Origin: Natroniella sulfidigena
GTDB lineage: Bacteria > Bacillota > Halanaerobiia > Halobacteroidales > Halobacteroidaceae
Reading direction: 5' to 3'
Assembly: GCF_023223645.1 (NCBI RefSeq)
Contig: NZ_JALKBY010000017.1
Coordinates: forward strand, 1 to 64,000
Length of the DNA stretch: 64,000 nt
Shown here: piece after piece, positions 32,341-38,349 of the stretch
Layout of the letters: each line of letters begins with the position of its first letter
Position numbering within the stretch: position 1 is the stretch's first letter
The notes under the pieces: generated by a model
Told to the model about the DNA's origin: nothing
Databases searched by the model: none
Seen by the model: only the letters and a program-made list of their open reading frames with translations
Position numbers and translations under genes: made by a program

Positions 32341-32343
32341 AAT

Positions 32344-32481
32344 AAAGTTGCCCAATGGCAACTTTAGATTAAGTATAAATCTCAGTTTAAGTCTAAGATT
32401 GAGCTTAAGTAAAATCAACAAATACAAACTAGTAAAAGTTATCTACAACCTCTAAAAACATAATTTCCTTAATGATAAAAA
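32344..32481. repeat. Family C intergenic element (copy 1)
   Basis: Starts with hairpin AAAGTTGCC-CAAT-GGCAACTTT (32344-32365), then TTAAGTCTAAGATTGAGC words, then a conserved tail from about 32410 to 32480 (AAATCAACAAATACAAACTA ... CTACAACCTCTAAAAACATA). The same order and tail recur at 51319-51425 and 56133-56252. Sits between htpX and the terminator of the next minus-strand gene. Confidence 0.75.
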
Positions 32482-32537: not shown

Positions 32538-33599
32538 TTAAAATTCTTCTACTAACTTTTCAGCTAGCCGATCCATATAACGGGTTATCTCATTTGAACC
32601 TATTCCTTCAGCAAATTCATACTCATATTCAATCTCCTCTAAGACACTATTATCTTCAACATCTATAATCTCCAATTCAAATTCTAAAGTAACTTGATCG
32701 GAGCTGGCATCAAGATCTGTAAGTTGGCCCATGATAATTTCTTGAGCACCTACCAGATTGGCTATATCTAAGCCAAGGGTTCTGTCTCGATTATCACTTA
32801 AGGCCTGACCTTGTTCATCCATTATCTGTTGGACATTCTTACGATCGATCATATAGAATTCATCAGTAATCTTAGCTTCTAAACGAGACTGTAAAGCATT
32901 GATAAATGTTCTCTCTAAACCAGATTGACCGGTTCGATTAAGCACAAAAATCAAGGCTCTTAAAGGTATATCTCCTTCAACTTTAGCTTGGGCTCGATGA
33001 TAGCGATCTGCTAAATCTTGATAGTTAGGATCGACATTATAAGCTTCTTGATACTCCAAATATGCCTCTTCCCAATTACCTTGTACTTCAAAGCTATGTC
33101 CTCTGCGATAATGGACTGCTACCAAATCCTGTTCCATCTCATCTAATCTATTTTGAGCTCTAAAAGCAGTAGGATGGTATTTTAAAGCTAATTGATAGTA
33201 CTTTCGAGCTTCTTCAAATTGTTCTGCTTCTTTAGCTTCATCCCCTAACTCAACATACATTGCTTCTGCTTCAACCCTAGCTTTTTCTAAACGGACTTTA
33301 GTATCTTCATAATCATCGACATATTCTAAAGCTGCTTCGTAAGCCTCTACAGCTTGGCCCCACTCTCCTCTACTAGCATAGGCTTGAGCTTCATCATATA
33401 AATCTCCTGCCTTAGATCTTCTATAATACCGTCTTCCAAAATAGAACAAGCCACCGACTACTACTAATGCACTTCCAACCTTAATGGCAGTATCAGAGTC
33501 AGAGCTACCATTATCATTATTAGAATTACTAGCTAATGCAGGTGCTGTAGTACTAAAGATCAATACGAATATTAAACAAAAGATAATCTGTTTTTTCAT
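32538..33599 (-). CDS. Signal-peptide protein with TPR repeats and CsgG/LpoB-like domain
   Basis: 353 residues. Signal peptide (KKQIIFCLIFVLIFSTTAPALA), a second hydrophobic segment at about 38-57 followed by RRYYRRSK, three to four TPR-like repeats between residues 65 and 205 (WGQAVEAYEAALEYV; YYQLALKYHPTAFRA; WEEAYLEYQEAYNV), then a CsgG/TolB-N-like alpha/beta domain (RALIFVLNRTGQ...RKNVQQIMDEQGQ...GAQEIIMGQLTDL). Probably envelope-located with the TPR part outside the inner membrane. Last gene of the five-gene envelope cluster. AGGAGGAATT precedes the ATG. Confidence 0.7.
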   Translation of the reverse strand: MKKQIIFCLIFVLIFSTTAPALASNSNNDNGSSDSDTAIKVGSALVVVGGLFYFGRRYYRRSKAGDLYDEAQAYASRGEWGQAVEAYEAALEYVDDYEDTKVRLEKARVEAEAMYVELGDEAKEAEQFEEARKYYQLALKYHPTAFRAQNRLDEMEQDLVAVHYRRGHSFEVQGNWEEAYLEYQEAYNVDPNYQDLADRYHRAQAKVEGDIPLRALIFVLNRTGQSGLERTFINALQSRLEAKITDEFYMIDRKNVQQIMDEQGQALSDNRDRTLGLDIANLVGAQEIIMGQLTDLDASSDQVTLEFELEIIDVEDNSVLEEIEYEYEFAEGIGSNEITRYMDRLAEKLVEEF

Positions 33600-33661
33600 C
33601 TTCTAATTCCTCCTATCAATTCTTCAATTTACAATGTACAATCAAATCCAAAAAATAAGAT

Positions 33662-33707
33662 AAAAACCAACTCCTAAGTATACTTAATCTTGGTTGTTAT
33701 TTTTTGC
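33662..33707 (-). terminator. Terminator of the LPP20-like gene
   Basis: AACCAA and TTGGTT arms enclosing TTAAGTATACTTAG, followed by TTTTTA on the minus strand and by TTATTTTTTG on the plus strand. The 3' flank (33714-33746) consists of iterated TAATTACTAATTACCAAT words, another example of the word repeats in this window. Confidence 0.6.
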
Positions 33708-33740
33708 TTTTACTAATTACTAATTACCAATTACTAGTTA

Positions 33741-34655
33741 CTAATCGATAATAAAGACAACTGCTCTTCGCTCAACAATCCCATGTTCCTTATCTAAATC
33801 TCTAAATAATCTAGCATTATCAGAATCTAAAATCAGATCAGTTGGTGCCTCACCAGAACGATTTATTACACTAGCTGCTTCAATTATCAATGGATTGTCT
33901 CCCACTCTATCGATCCCCATAATCCCCTCTTCACTGCGAGAATAAGCAACTAAAGAAGATACATTATCTGGATTGTCAGCACTTACTTCTGTTGGCCCGT
34001 AAAGACTATAACCTTGGCTATCAAAAATTTGAGGATATAAAGCAGTTGCTACATCAAAGCCACGAGTATCTATAACTACCGAAGTATATTCGATCCCCCG
34101 TTCCACCTCTTCTTCTATTTCTATTTCCTCTCTAGGAGGAACTTCACGCCTTGGCTGATCAAGATGTTCTTCAACATCATCAATCCTATCTTGTGAATCT
34201 TCTCGAGCATCATCCTCTAAATAATAAGCTAAACCTTCTCTACCATCTAACGGTAACTCCATTGTTACTGTACTGATCTTCATATCTGGATCATATTCAG
34301 AATCGACAAATAAAGCACCTTCTATAAAACCACGTACTTGGGTCTCTACACGATCAGATGTTGCTATCATATCTTCCATAGTAGTCTGACTGTTAACCCT
34401 AACTCCATCAATAAACTCAGCAGCATTTCGGTAAGCATCAACTCTAGCAGCTCGCTGAGCCATTAACTTAGCTTGGCCCCCAATATGATGTTCAGCAGCC
34501 ACACCTTGACCTTGAACTACAACAACCCCTCTCTCCCAATCAACTTCAGCAGTCTCTTCTTCAACACCAAAAGCTCCTGCCTCAAGATTGATCAATAATA
34601 ATAAAGAAAGAATTAATACAGGTATATAAATCGCTTTTTTTAAATTCATTATCAT
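33741..34655 (-). CDS. LPP20/FlgP-like envelope protein
   Basis: 304 residues with a signal peptide (IYIPVLILSLLLLINLEAGAFG). Residues about 40-140 have the LPP20 pattern (VVVVQGQGVA ... AQRAARVDAYRNAAEFIDGV ... VETQVRGFIEGA), the fold of the flagellar outer-membrane protein FlgP. A proline/glutamate-rich linker follows (residues 160-195), then a C-terminal region (ALYPQIFDSQGYSLYGP) seen in related proteins. No lipobox. A start at ATG 34649 is also possible. Lies between the FlgT-like and the TPR-CsgG-like genes. Confidence 0.65.
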   Translation of the reverse strand: MIMNLKKAIYIPVLILSLLLLINLEAGAFGVEEETAEVDWERGVVVVQGQGVAAEHHIGGQAKLMAQRAARVDAYRNAAEFIDGVRVNSQTTMEDMIATSDRVETQVRGFIEGALFVDSEYDPDMKISTVTMELPLDGREGLAYYLEDDAREDSQDRIDDVEEHLDQPRREVPPREEIEIEEEVERGIEYTSVVIDTRGFDVATALYPQIFDSQGYSLYGPTEVSADNPDNVSSLVAYSRSEEGIMGIDRVGDNPLIIEAASVINRSGEAPTDLILDSDNARLFRDLDKEHGIVERRAVVFIID

Positions 34656-34673
34656 TAACTCCCTTCAATTAGA

Positions 34674-34897
34674 TGACAGTGTACAGTTTACGGTTTACAG
34701 TTGATAGTTGATAGTTGATAGAAAAAATCTAAGATCTGATTTTTTCATCACGAAGGGTTCAAAGAACCCGAAGGAAAATCATTTAAAGACCAAAATCAAG
34801 AACATCATAATCCTATAATCATAATAATTTTCAGCCTTCGTAATCTTTTTAGGTTTTGATCTTTAATTGTAAATTGTACATTGTCAACTGTACATTA
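34674..34897. repeat. Inverted word-arm element with one 30-bp hairpin module
   Basis: Left arm of GTACAGTTTACGGTTTACAG words and TTGATAG repeats, a hairpin module at 34743-34775 with stem GGGTTCAAAGAACCC (identical to the one at 4851-4867), and a right arm of TAATTGTAAATTGTACATT words (34862-34893). It fills the whole gap between the FlgT-like and LPP20-like genes. Confidence 0.8.
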
Positions 34898-34899
34898 TA

Positions 34900-36036
34900 T
34901 TACTCCTTACTTAAATTAATCTGACTACCAGAAACTCCAGTCACCTCAAGTGAAAACTCACTTTCATTTGCAATTTCTCTAGACAGCTGCATAGGCAGAA
35001 TACTAGTATTTAGATCAAATCTGGCTGAACCTCCTGAAAAATCCCTTAAATAGACAGCATCAACAAAGCTCATCTCCTTTAATTCAGCTTCAAAATCATC
35101 AACATCTGAAAAGCTAATCCCACTAATAGTTAGTTGAACACTTCGTTCACCATCTGAGATAGCCTCAGAAACTACATCCAATAAGTACTCACCCATCTTG
35201 GCCCCTGCATTGGCCAATGAGTCTCTAGCAGCAGCAGTCTCTGTGATATCGATCCCACTCTCACTGACACCATGTGAGGCAACTAGCTCAGCTGTATCAG
35301 TCTCAACAACCTCAGTACTCAATGTAGCTCGATAGGAGTAAAAACCTTGCCTCTCTTCTACAAACTGACTAGTAGCTTCTCCAATCACCAACAGATCAGC
35401 ATCATACTCTGCTCTCAACTCACGAAAAGCATCTGCATCACCAGCTAATGCCCGTCGGACTCCTTCACTATTTCGAGCTTGATCTACCTGGTTTTGATCG
35501 ATCAATCTAAACCCAGCATCTAACAGTTGCCGAGTAATCTCTCTCTCTGCTGCAGGAGTTGAAATAGCTCTAGCACTATTCCACCTTCTTCTAATATACT
35601 CTTCACCAGGGATAACAACCATAACCCTTGGATCTCCTGCCCGATGAATAACCAGATCTAAAGCATCTAAATCATCTTCTAAAAGTTCTTCTTGTACCAA
35701 AGCTCTTATTTTTACATAAAAGACACCATCTTGATTCCAAGTATCTAAAACCTCATAATCAGCTACATAACCTTGTGCTTGGCTGAAAATAGAGTCCTCA
35801 ATTAACTCATAATTATTAGTTTTGGTCTGACTATCTATAAAAACACCGACTCCTTTTTCTACTGCATTGCGAAAAGCATCCGTAGTTGCCATATCTCTAG
35901 CTTGGACTAGATTTCCAGCACTTATATTGGCCCTTCCTTCTACCTCTACATAGTTACCTTCTTGAGCAAAGGCTATTGGAGAAGAGAATAAAACTATAAT
36001 CAAAGCCAGTAAGACAGCTCTTTTATTAATTCGCAT
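34900..36036 (-). CDS. FlgT-like envelope protein
   Basis: About 378 residues. Signal peptide (NKRAVLLALIIVLFSSPIAFAQ). Residues 28-125 match the FlgT N-terminal domain pattern (VEVEGRANISAGNLVQARDM ... DAFRNAVEKGVGVFIDSQ ... QGYVADYEVLD), followed by a TolB-N/FlgT-middle-like region (RVMVVIPGEEYIRRRW ... LLDAGFRLIDQNQVDQ ... DADLLVIGEA). FlgT builds the H-ring of sheathed or outer-membrane flagella with FlgO and FlgP in Vibrio. Start at ATG 36036 with GAAGTGAG upstream; the ATG at 36060 gives an unlikely charged extension. Confidence 0.65.
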   Translation of the reverse strand: MRINKRAVLLALIIVLFSSPIAFAQEGNYVEVEGRANISAGNLVQARDMATTDAFRNAVEKGVGVFIDSQTKTNNYELIEDSIFSQAQGYVADYEVLDTWNQDGVFYVKIRALVQEELLEDDLDALDLVIHRAGDPRVMVVIPGEEYIRRRWNSARAISTPAAEREITRQLLDAGFRLIDQNQVDQARNSEGVRRALAGDADAFRELRAEYDADLLVIGEATSQFVEERQGFYSYRATLSTEVVETDTAELVASHGVSESGIDITETAAARDSLANAGAKMGEYLLDVVSEAISDGERSVQLTISGISFSDVDDFEAELKEMSFVDAVYLRDFSGGSARFDLNTSILPMQLSREIANESEFSLEVTGVSGSQINLSKE

Positions 36037-36077
36037 TAAACTCACTTCTCTTTCAATCAAATTGTTTTTTATTGATA

Positions 36078-36210
36078 TTAAGTTTAAGGCTAAGTCTAAG
36101 TTTAAGTAAAACCTAAGCCCTTATGCTTTTAACGGTTGGCTTAGACTTACCTTCGGGTTTATAAAAACCCTTCGTAATAAAAACCATTTCCTCAACCTTA
36201 GACTTAAGCT
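36078..36210. repeat. Inverted-arm element (AAGTTTAAGG words) containing a reversed hairpin module
   Basis: Left arm 36078-36107, core AACCTAAGCCCTTATGCTTT at 36110-36129, a hairpin module in reverse orientation at 36150-36178 with stem GGGTTT-ATAA-AAACCC, and right arm ACCTTAGACTTAAGC. It shows that the module and the arm/core families combine. Confidence 0.75.
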
Positions 36211-36239
36211 ATTTTGTAATTAAGCTTCACTTTTCTCAA

Positions 36240-37574
36240 TTAAAAGATATTCATCGGTATAGTAGCAATAATATTAAATCCTATTCCACTCAAATCAATC
36301 TCAGAATGAATACCTTCATCAACACTATTACCTGAGTCTGTATCCTCCCAATTATCAATAGTTGAACCTAACTGACCTTGCAGACCTGCTCTAATTCTAA
36401 AGCCCTGATCATAATCAGAATAATACTTTATTCCTGTTCCTAGATTGCCATAAAAGCCTGAGTCAGAAGCTGTTCCACTAGCCCCCATATGATTATCATC
36501 ATGATCTTGCCTAGCAACATTAAAGCCAGCTCCAGCACTACCTAGTAGATAAAGCCTACCTGGAGTTAAAGCTTTCTCATAAACTCCTTCTACACCTATA
36601 TCAAACATAGTTACATCATTTGCTCTACCACCAGAAAGAATTACATTCATTTCAGATTCAAAAGCCCGCTCCATAACTCCCCTAAATTCAAACATAGGCA
36701 TCATTTTAGACTCCCCATCAAATGAGTAATTTCTAGCACTAAAACCGATCGCAGTCATTGTCTGACGATCATATGGAACCTCTTTAACTGTATCATTCTC
36801 CTCAATCGGCTCTTCTTGCCACAAAATCTTGGCCCGCGAATCATCAGAAATTACCTGTTCTACCTCGATCATTCCTACCTTCCTACCAAAGCCTGCTTCA
36901 TCTTGACGCATAACATAATAACGATGACCAGTTCGAATTCCCATCTCTGCTCCACCAAGTAGATCTACATTATCTCTACTGACATTAGTCACAAAAGAAG
37001 TAATCGCAAACGCCTCACGAATTGGATTGCTTAAATCACTAATTGCTGCTTCTAAAGCCTCATTTCTGGCTTCAGTCCTATTATCTTCCGAAGAGGAACT
37101 CCCTTCACTTTGAAAAGACTGTAATACAGTCCCTGTCTCTACATCGATCAATTGGACAGTAACCCTAGCTTCACCATCATAATCACTCCAAGACCCGCTA
37201 GTAGTCAATCGATCAATATTTCCTACAAAGATTCGCTCGACTCCTAATACATTCCCAGCATCTCCTGCTGTATCACCATCTACGAAGCCGGACTTTTGAA
37301 AATGTTGTTCATCTAAAATACGATCAATCTCATTTCTAGAAATAACATCTACCCTATCTAAATCAATTAAAATTTGAGTTAGATAATTGGCTGCTGCTTG
37401 CTGATATTGGCTACTTCCTTCCCCTCCAAACTCCAAAACTGCAACACCATCTTCTGCAAATCCGGGAGTAGAAATAACAGATACAATTAATATAGCTAAT
37501 AAAATAGTAATTAAACTACGCATTTTCCCCCAAAAATAATCTCCTAAAAATTTATTTCTTACTTCTTGATTCAT
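36240..37574 (-). CDS. CsgG/FlgO-like domain protein with C-terminal beta-barrel
   Basis: 444 residues. Signal peptide starts at about residue 18 (MRSLITILLAILIVSVISTPGFA) after a long N-region; the strong AGGAGGGG site nevertheless favours ATG 37574. Residues 43-190 are CsgG/LpoB-like (VAVLEFGGEGSSQ ... RVDVISRNEIDRILDEQHFQ ... LGVERIFVGNID). Residues about 205-275 resemble a FlgT C-terminal or SH3-like domain (GIRTGHRYYVMRQDE). Residues 280-444 alternate hydrophobic and polar residues and end in IIATIPMNIF, like an outer-membrane barrel. The fusion suggests an outer-membrane-inserted member of this cluster. Confidence 0.65.
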   Translation of the reverse strand: MNQEVRNKFLGDYFWGKMRSLITILLAILIVSVISTPGFAEDGVAVLEFGGEGSSQYQQAAANYLTQILIDLDRVDVISRNEIDRILDEQHFQKSGFVDGDTAGDAGNVLGVERIFVGNIDRLTTSGSWSDYDGEARVTVQLIDVETGTVLQSFQSEGSSSSEDNRTEARNEALEAAISDLSNPIREAFAITSFVTNVSRDNVDLLGGAEMGIRTGHRYYVMRQDEAGFGRKVGMIEVEQVISDDSRAKILWQEEPIEENDTVKEVPYDRQTMTAIGFSARNYSFDGESKMMPMFEFRGVMERAFESEMNVILSGGRANDVTMFDIGVEGVYEKALTPGRLYLLGSAGAGFNVARQDHDDNHMGASGTASDSGFYGNLGTGIKYYSDYDQGFRIRAGLQGQLGSTIDNWEDTDSGNSVDEGIHSEIDLSGIGFNIIATIPMNIF

Positions 37575-37704
37575 TCTAAACCCCTCCTAGAAATATGTAA
37601 ATCATACTATTAAGTATTCAATTCAATAAAACCACTTAAAACCCTTTATAAACCCAATTTTATTCTCAGGTTACATAAAACTACATTAGCTTTTAAAAAA
37701 ATAA

Positions 37705-37747
37705 AACCTCTAAGCTCTTTTTAAAATACTGGAAACTTAGAGGTGTT
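37705..37747 (-). terminator. Terminator of the small barrel gene
   Basis: CCTCTAAG and CTTAGAGG arms around 23 nt, followed on the minus strand by TTTTATTTTTTT. Located 18 nt past the stop of the 37765-38289 gene, so that gene and the CsgG-barrel gene are separate units. Confidence 0.75.
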
Positions 37748-37764
37748 ATTATCTTTTAACATAA

Positions 37765-38289
37765 CTAAAATTCAAGCATCAAATTCCCACCAAACTCAAG
37801 ACCACTATAGTCATCCTCACCAAGCTCTAACGATCTATAACCCCCTCGAGCTACCAAGCTTATATCACTACCGAGTAATTTGGCTTCTATCCCCGCTTTG
37901 TAACCAATACTTGAATCTTCATCTTCTGAATAATGCCCAACAGAACCAACCAGATTTATACTCTCCTCTACCATAATAGTAGCAGTCCCTAAGGCTCCAA
38001 CTATAGAAGTATCTATTTCATTATCATCTATAGTTAAATATTCGACCTCACCACCTACTGCCAAATCCTCTAATACCCATCTTCTCATTCCTCCATATAC
38101 ACCAGGAGCAGAATCATCAACAAAATCTATCTGGTTATTACTCCCCCCTAGATAACCTTCAATCAATCCCACTCTAGTCTCTTTCCACGGGTTTAATTCC
38201 TCTAATAATTCTCCTAATGCTACCGCTGGTGAGCTAAATAAGATCACTGTCGATACCACCAACATAACAACTAGCCCCTCTTTTTTCAT
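37765..38289 (-). CDS. Small outer-membrane beta-barrel-like protein
   Basis: About 174 residues with signal peptide (KKEGLVVMLVVSTVILFSSPAVA) and a body of short alternating strands (GGEVEYLTIDD; GYKAGIEAKLLGSDISLVARGGYRSLEL) ending in GGNLMLEF with terminal Phe. No family recognised. The start is ATG 38289, after GGGGGAG; ATG 38307 lies ahead of that site. Neighbour of the CsgG/FlgT-like group, which supports an envelope location. Confidence 0.6.
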   Translation of the reverse strand: MKKEGLVVMLVVSTVILFSSPAVALGELLEELNPWKETRVGLIEGYLGGSNNQIDFVDDSAPGVYGGMRRWVLEDLAVGGEVEYLTIDDNEIDTSIVGALGTATIMVEESINLVGSVGHYSEDEDSSIGYKAGIEAKLLGSDISLVARGGYRSLELGEDDYSGLEFGGNLMLEF

Positions 38290-38349
38290 TTTAACTCCCC
38301 CTTCCATATTTTTTAGTTTCCAAGTTCATCGCTCCCATTGCTAATCTAA

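Follow-up and report, generated by a model that had tools for sequence, protein, structure and literature searches.

Five consecutive genes of a Natroniella-like bacterium (Halobacteroidaceae, Halanaerobiales) encode exported proteins that, in the reading we favour (probability about 0.55), would form a periplasmic ring or scaffold anchored in the outer membrane and composed of ring-forming domains from the Vibrio H-ring and the Campylobacter basal disk. The genes lie on contig 9 of the 2.63-Mb genome of Natroniella sulfidigena, in a stretch of 64,000 nucleotides (NZ_JALKBY010000017.1, positions 1 to 64,000), which is called the window here. They code for proteins of 180, 444, 386, 304 and 353 amino acids (aa), three of which belong to the CsgG, FlgT and LPP20/FlgP families (Table 1). 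In Vibrio and Campylobacter, proteins of the FlgT and FlgP type form rings that encircle the flagellum beneath the outer membrane. On the whole, the ring or scaffold is no purely flagellar device. Hosts with flagella may employ it around the P and L rings; a flagellar conclusion is possible, not required.

Profiles and folds show that the families named in the original prediction were right in kind. The 386-aa protein was predicted to be FlgT-like, and it matches FlgT_N above the Pfam cut-off (34.3 bits, cut-off 28.8). Its AlphaFold 2 (AF2) model, built with ten sequences, has a mean predicted local distance difference test score (pLDDT) of 75.9 and is composed of FlgT_N, a TolB_N-like middle part and a beta-alpha-beta-beta-alpha-beta C-terminus. 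The top two Foldseek matches in the PDB are both Vibrio FlgT, once within the LPHT ring (8z5n_0, E 6.5e-11) and once as an isolated protein (3w1e, E 8.8e-11). In VIA comparisons the model aligned with TolB (Z 12.1, root-mean-square deviation (rmsd) 2.9, 123 residues) and, over residues 36-303, with FlgT 3w1e (Z 11.7, 215 residues, rmsd 13.3, a deviation probably due to turned domains). The fold-search matches cover mainly residues 141-303 of this model and 41-268 of the 444-aa model. FlgT_C has no Pfam match on the 386-aa chain; the model after residue 301 is the beta-alpha-beta-beta-alpha-beta part, and the order of its strands suggests the idea that residues 306-385 could be a secretin-like “ring-building motif”.

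The 444-aa protein carries a CsgG domain (31.5 bits, cut-off 20.8) and aligns by hhalign with a 13-member CsgG-FlgT_C family from Negativicutes and Halanaerobiia (E 2.8e-26, 261 columns), through the FlgT_C domain found in 11 of these members. In its AF2 model (pLDDT 66.1), the closest solved fold to residues 41-191 by VIA is PelC (Z 13.8, 125 residues, rmsd 2.4), while residues 42-274 align with the middle and C-terminal domains of Vibrio FlgT (3w1e, 99-356; Z 12.7, 216 residues, rmsd 10.2), and residues 271-443 with barrels of the outer membrane, OmpT among them (Z 10.2, rmsd 3.9, 164 residues). The barrel part also has a period-2 signal (z 2.9), and a C-terminal phenylalanine occurs in the window protein and in five of seven fusion homologues, the two others being those of the genus-mate G001 and UBA4881a. 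A phmmer search of the fusion against PDB sequences returned nothing; the CsgG part is backed by Pfam and fold. The predicted fusion of a CsgG-like domain to a barrel appears genuine from Pfam, model folds and homologues. According to the models, the 386-aa and 444-aa proteins together hold the three domains of Vibrio FlgT, split over two genes.

For the 304-aa protein, Pfam LPP20 alone stays under the cut-off (E 0.016). An 11-member family profile, however, reaches Campylobacter jejuni FlgP (9hmf_C) at E 1.3e-22, ungapped across the insert, and Vibrio FlgP at E 1.7e-6 (8z5n_2) and 1.1e-7, in agreement with the predicted LPP20/FlgP-like protein. As described in PMC12222027, C. jejuni FlgP assembles into rings through an SHS2-domain insert that forms a beta-hairpin, the authors relate this insert to how the family, with FlgT among its members, forms rings, and Lpp20 of Helicobacter pylori has the same fold. 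With the same family profile, the C-terminal half of the 304-aa protein resembles domain 2 (D2) of Treponema pallidum Tp0624 (5jir, E 2.1e-12), which a 2016 paper (PMC5104382) called previously uncharacterised and without structural analogues. In diderm bacteria, two-domain LPP20-like proteins carry this orphan domain as their C-terminal half, which ties it to a family of wide distribution.

The three families are, by sequence, conserved together as partners. In a set of 61 relatives, searched with a single sequence for the FlgT-like protein and with a full two-domain profile for the LPP20-like one, a FlgT-like match was found in 15 genomes. The full LPP20-like gene was found in 13, all among these 15, and in none of the 46 FlgT-negative genomes (Fisher p 1.6e-11). 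This count leaves out G010, with the C-terminal domain and cross-matches only, and G056, with a cross-match of the FlgT-like gene only, and all co-occurrence statistics ignore kinship. In what we take to be the Negativicutes (the class of genome G064, so labelled for its members Schwartzia and Pelosinus; 300 genomes), CsgG, FlgT-like and LPP20 genes stand together at 14 of 19 FlgT loci. At nine further FlgT loci, from genomes lacking FliG, the full trio is present in 4/9 and FlgT-like plus CsgG in 8/9. The cluster as a whole is likewise more than chance, because the genus-mate G001 keeps all five genes (79-88% identity, on two contigs), and because similar genes stand in one row in UBA4881 (L072), a genome of an unrelated lineage: two CsgG-FlgT_C-barrel-like, an LPP20-like, a TPR-CsgG (TPR, tetratricopeptide repeat) and a FlgT-like gene.

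The full-length fusion has a distribution of its own. With the fusion as query, 23 of the 61 relatives gave a CsgG-like match, and in eight the alignment extended to at least residue 415. Three of the eight full-length carriers are the window genome, G001 and G010; the other five all belong to a single genus of family f5 and have no FlgT-like match. Three full-length CsgG-FlgT_C-barrel fusions (L062, L063 and L064, in G024, G015 and G022) come from flagellated family-f5 genomes without FlgT-like genes. G010 encodes a second kind of fusion (L054:7399-8955, 518 aa), in which CsgG is followed by middle repeats and by a barrel-like end with a terminal phenylalanine; its neighbours are a CsgG-FlgT_C-barrel gene and one for an OMP_b-brl protein of 251 aa (32.1 bits). 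In Negativicutes, the FlgT_C of CsgG proteins (L125:10120-10992, family A6) also matches TsaP (3jc8, E 4.1e-12), a partner of the type IV pilus secretin.

In the FlgT-like tree, the proteins of the window, G010 and G001 group at 100/100 support, apart from six other rows of family f1. A single clade for the family-f1 proteins is rejected by the approximately unbiased (AU) test (p 0.0003), the hypothesis having been picked after viewing the tree. Some long branches are joined (f4 with Bacteroidota), and such joins were left unused.

A flagellar connection was part of the original prediction, and part of it holds: the host is a diderm with flagella genes, encoding FliG, FlgI (P ring) and FlgH (L ring), and the homology to FlgT and FlgP is real. 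P- and L-ring genes of Halanaerobiales flagella were already known from PMC5007114, whose main text leaves CsgG unmentioned. In one rival reading the cluster would encode a genuine flagellar collar, equivalent in Firmicutes to the H-ring of Vibrio, surrounding the L and P rings and bracing the motor. Such a collar is consistent with all 13 relatives with FlgT plus LPP20 being positive for FliG and FlgI (Fisher p 0.028 for FliG, kinship ignored), and with the adjacency of flgT, flgO and flgP in Vibrio and Shewanella, judged by locus tags in PMC6375700. Both family-f4 genomes (L067 and L158, two genera) have flgK/flgL, along with other flagellar genes, within a few genes of the LPP20-FlgT pair. 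In Halanaerobium saccharolyticum (L065), FlgT-LPP20-CsgG directly precede the flagellin gene, and the CsgG member scores above the cut-off for FlgO (PF17680, 26.2 bits). Among the 300 Negativicutes, 111 genomes have both FlgT-like and FliG, 19 FlgT-like only, 52 FliG only and 118 neither (odds ratio 13).

Against a collar, the cluster itself is unlinked to flagellar genes: no homologue of E. coli flagellar proteins was detected in the 64-kb window, around the FlgP-like gene or elsewhere. Flagellar genes are nearby at just 3 of 15 Halanaerobiia FlgT loci and at 1 of 28 loci in the Negativicutes (G331), and in G019 and G058, of the same genus as H. saccharolyticum, the trio is present but the stretch examined contains no flagellar homologue. 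Furthermore, 33 of the 47 FliG-positive relatives lack FlgT, and intact sets are kept where FliG is absent, as in 19 of the 130 FlgT-positive Negativicutes. For example, a clade of seven rows in the FlgT tree (support 100/100) is FliG-negative in six; its end branches measure 0.18-1.0 changes per site, and the FlgT-like protein has therefore been retained for long without FliG. In the sole FliG-positive member of this clade, G331 (L123/L124), about 12 kb separate fliG from the CsgG-FlgT pair. In the FliG-negative G128 the trio lies on a 2.23-Mb contig, and FliG-negative genomes of Omnitrophota (L080) and Acidobacteriota (L088) carry all three families. Two FliG-negative Bacteroidota carry the pair, whereas two Thermotogaceae with the pair have FliG. 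G056, a FlgT-positive member of the Halanaerobiia whose genome is 76% complete, has neither FliG nor FlgI. Conservation in relatives without flagella, named beforehand as evidence that would speak against the flagellar reading, was thus observed in part, and we consider a dedicated collar somewhat unlikely.

The CsgG match, PelC as the closest fold and the presence of a barrel could also point to a CsgG- or PelC-type export apparatus for amyloid or polysaccharide, in line with the “secretion device” of the original prediction. This suggestion found little support. The strand-to-strand loops of the 444-aa model at 128-131 and 144-150 have 2 and 5 residues, too short for the membrane hairpins of CsgG, and the CsgG part looks like a PelC/TolB-N-type ring domain without space for them. 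In addition, a fused barrel of about nine predicted strands would be too small for a secretion pore, the proteins have no lipobox, the constant partners are FlgT- and FlgP-like, and no curli, CsgE, CsgF or pel genes were recognised among the neighbours in a general domain scan, not aimed at them. Export is improbable on these grounds. Peptidoglycan-synthase activators or Tol-like factors, acting on the cell wall without any ring, would fit the shared fold of LpoB and TolB_N, yet the Pfam scores for these are below FlgT_N and, for the 444-aa protein, below CsgG; with FlgP-like partners and no outer-membrane lipoprotein anchor, we find this highly improbable.

Some points weigh against the favoured ring or scaffold as well. 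Confidence is low for the barrel part of the 444-aa model and its nine predicted strands (pLDDT mostly about 50-60). To our knowledge, H. pylori Lpp20 is no ring protein, and ring formation in the LPP20 family depends on context. The association in the Negativicutes can be read as a flagellar role, followed by losses of FliG or blurred by incomplete genomes. Finally, what is proposed on oligomers, localisation and phenotype is inferred from homology and gene conservation.

In the ring or scaffold as we picture it, the FlgP-like and FlgT-like proteins would oligomerise via their SHS2 domains, the insert for the ring sheet being kept, and the TolB_N/CsgG-type domains would form a second ring layer. 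The CsgG-FlgT_C-barrel protein would pin the assembly to the outer membrane by its own barrel, not by a lipid, and the TPR-CsgG protein could be an assembly factor or sit at the periphery.

FlgO, FlgP, CsgG and PelC are lipoproteins; the fused barrel may stand in place of this usual lipid anchor. None of the five cluster proteins was positive in a lipobox scan, and the 304-aa protein has no cysteine within its first 40 residues and no lipoprotein signal. Among Halanaerobiia, lipoboxes were found in 0/20 CsgG, 0/15 FlgT, 1/13 LPP20 and 0/5 fusion proteins (1/53 family proteins), and among Negativicutes in 2/29 CsgG, 0/30 FlgT and 1/22 LPP20 proteins, the two CsgG matches (L125, L126) lying inside a longer hydrophobic stretch and possibly being false. 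As a control, five of six FlgP-like proteins of Campylobacterota were positive. Lipoboxes were absent from ten of ten Bacteroidota LPP20 proteins, so that their absence is not restricted to Firmicutes. According to PMC5007114, Negativicutes lack LolA and Halanaerobiales have it; a lost lipoprotein sorting may hence explain the absence in Negativicutes, but not that in the window.

Compared with the Vibrio H-ring (FlgT, FlgO, FlgP), the cluster shares neighbouring genes with FlgT_N and FlgT_M in the 386-aa protein, a FlgP-type SHS2 domain in the 304-aa protein, and FlgT_M/FlgT_C-type domains in the 444-aa protein. It differs in having the FlgT_C-like domain on another gene, no FlgO (PF17680) match at E up to 1 in any of the five proteins, no lipobox, an extra Tp0624-D2 domain, a fused barrel and a non-flagellar locus. 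With the FlgP of the Campylobacter basal disk (9hmf), it shares the SHS2/LPP20 domain, aligned through the ring-forming insert; Campylobacterota proteins mostly have a lipobox, whereas the 304-aa protein has none and carries a second domain. The 444-aa protein resembles the CsgG/PelC ring lipoproteins in its TolB_N-like domain, CsgG match and best fold, but lacks a lipobox and hairpin space and has an added FlgT_C-like domain and a separate barrel. An NCBIfam model of Leptospira LipL46 matches residues 30-287 of the 386-aa protein (E 1.8e-14). LipL46 may belong to the same family, although the score (53 bits) is far under the cut-off of 400 and LipL46 is called a lipoprotein.

The FlgP sequence of the Negativicute Acetonema longum served as a search query in Chaban et al. 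2018 (PMC5758724), and therefore FlgP relatives in diderm Firmicutes had already been noticed; for Firmicutes, the part of that paper available mentions neither a cluster nor FlgT, CsgG or a fused barrel. In the open-licence literature, we found none joining Halanaerobiales or LipL46 with FlgT, or CsgG with LPP20 or FlgT, and no title on a CsgG/LPP20/FlgP cluster in Negativicutes or Halanaerobiales was among the matches listed. A FlgT/FlgP/CsgG module that occurs in diderm Firmicutes with and without flagella makes it possible to test whether accessory rings, which brace high-torque motors, were recruited from a general outer-membrane scaffold. We tentatively suggest that FlgT/FlgP/FlgO-like flagellar rings could derive from an older, flagella-independent outer-membrane ring module spread across diderm phyla. 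In Natroniella, one other genus of the order and UBA4881 it would have a barrel anchor of its own instead of lipid ones, with two genes holding the domains later joined in Vibrio FlgT. The module is also a candidate structural complex for envelope biology in Negativicutes and Halanaerobiales, whose outer-membrane machinery is little studied.

The gene row is as predicted, with five consecutive open reading frames (ORFs) on the minus strand and a hydrophobic signal-like N-terminal stretch in 5/5 products; the longest frame extends 18 bases past the proposed cluster end at 38289, and the row spans 38307-32538. Gaps between the genes are 141-244 bases, and a pattern scan found a single minus-strand terminator-like site, just past the last gene.

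Table 1. Features of the cluster and its downstream end, in window coordinates
Feature	Position	Strand	Basis
180-aa exported protein with C-terminal F, possibly a small outer-membrane beta-barrel	37765-38307	-	ORF; OMP_b-brl E 0.12
444-aa protein: signal peptide, CsgG/TolB_N-like ~41-190, FlgT_C-like SH3 ~190-268, C-terminal barrel ~280-444	36240-37574	-	
386-aa FlgT-like protein: FlgT_N ~36-123, FlgT_M/TolB_N-like 143-301, C-terminal beta-alpha-beta-beta-alpha-beta 306-385	34900-36060	-	
304-aa FlgP-like protein: LPP20/SHS2 domain with ring-forming insert, C-terminal Tp0624-D2-type domain	33741-34655	-	
353-aa TPR protein, C-terminal CsgG/LpoB-like domain	32538-33599	-	
Terminator-like hairpin 3' of last gene	32343-32366	-	pattern scan only

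Sigma-70-type sites (31 versus 19.7 in shuffles, standard deviation 4.6) were scattered over both strands and not used. A sigma-28 search with a typed consensus could not distinguish the flagellin-gene controls themselves and is uninformative on the cluster genes. The GC content of the cluster (0.373 versus 0.352) is inside the spread of 5.77-kb windows (standard deviation 0.023), giving no sign of recent transfer.

The small barrel was the weakest part of the original prediction. The 180-aa protein is exported and ends in phenylalanine, but its OMP_b-brl match is weak and it has no period-2 signal (z 0.2); among the loci compared, a relative was found only in G001 (79%). The TPR protein with a CsgG-like domain is, as predicted, a genuine fusion with homologues of the same layout. 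In Pfam it matches TPR_2 (51.9 bits), LpoB (E 0.0024) and CsgG (E 0.028), and its best outside match is that of UBA4881, with the same layout (phmmer 5e-25), followed by other family-f1 genomes (1.5e-16 to 7e-8). The host genome encodes a second TPR-CsgG protein (G000:C23:31087-31503; L050:8962-10008; CsgG 66.6 bits), whose gene adjoins two others, one for a DUF5723-like protein of 402 aa that may be a barrel and one for a probable lipoprotein of 476 aa. In other family-f1 genomes, genes like this second set stand beside FlgT-like and LPP20-like genes.

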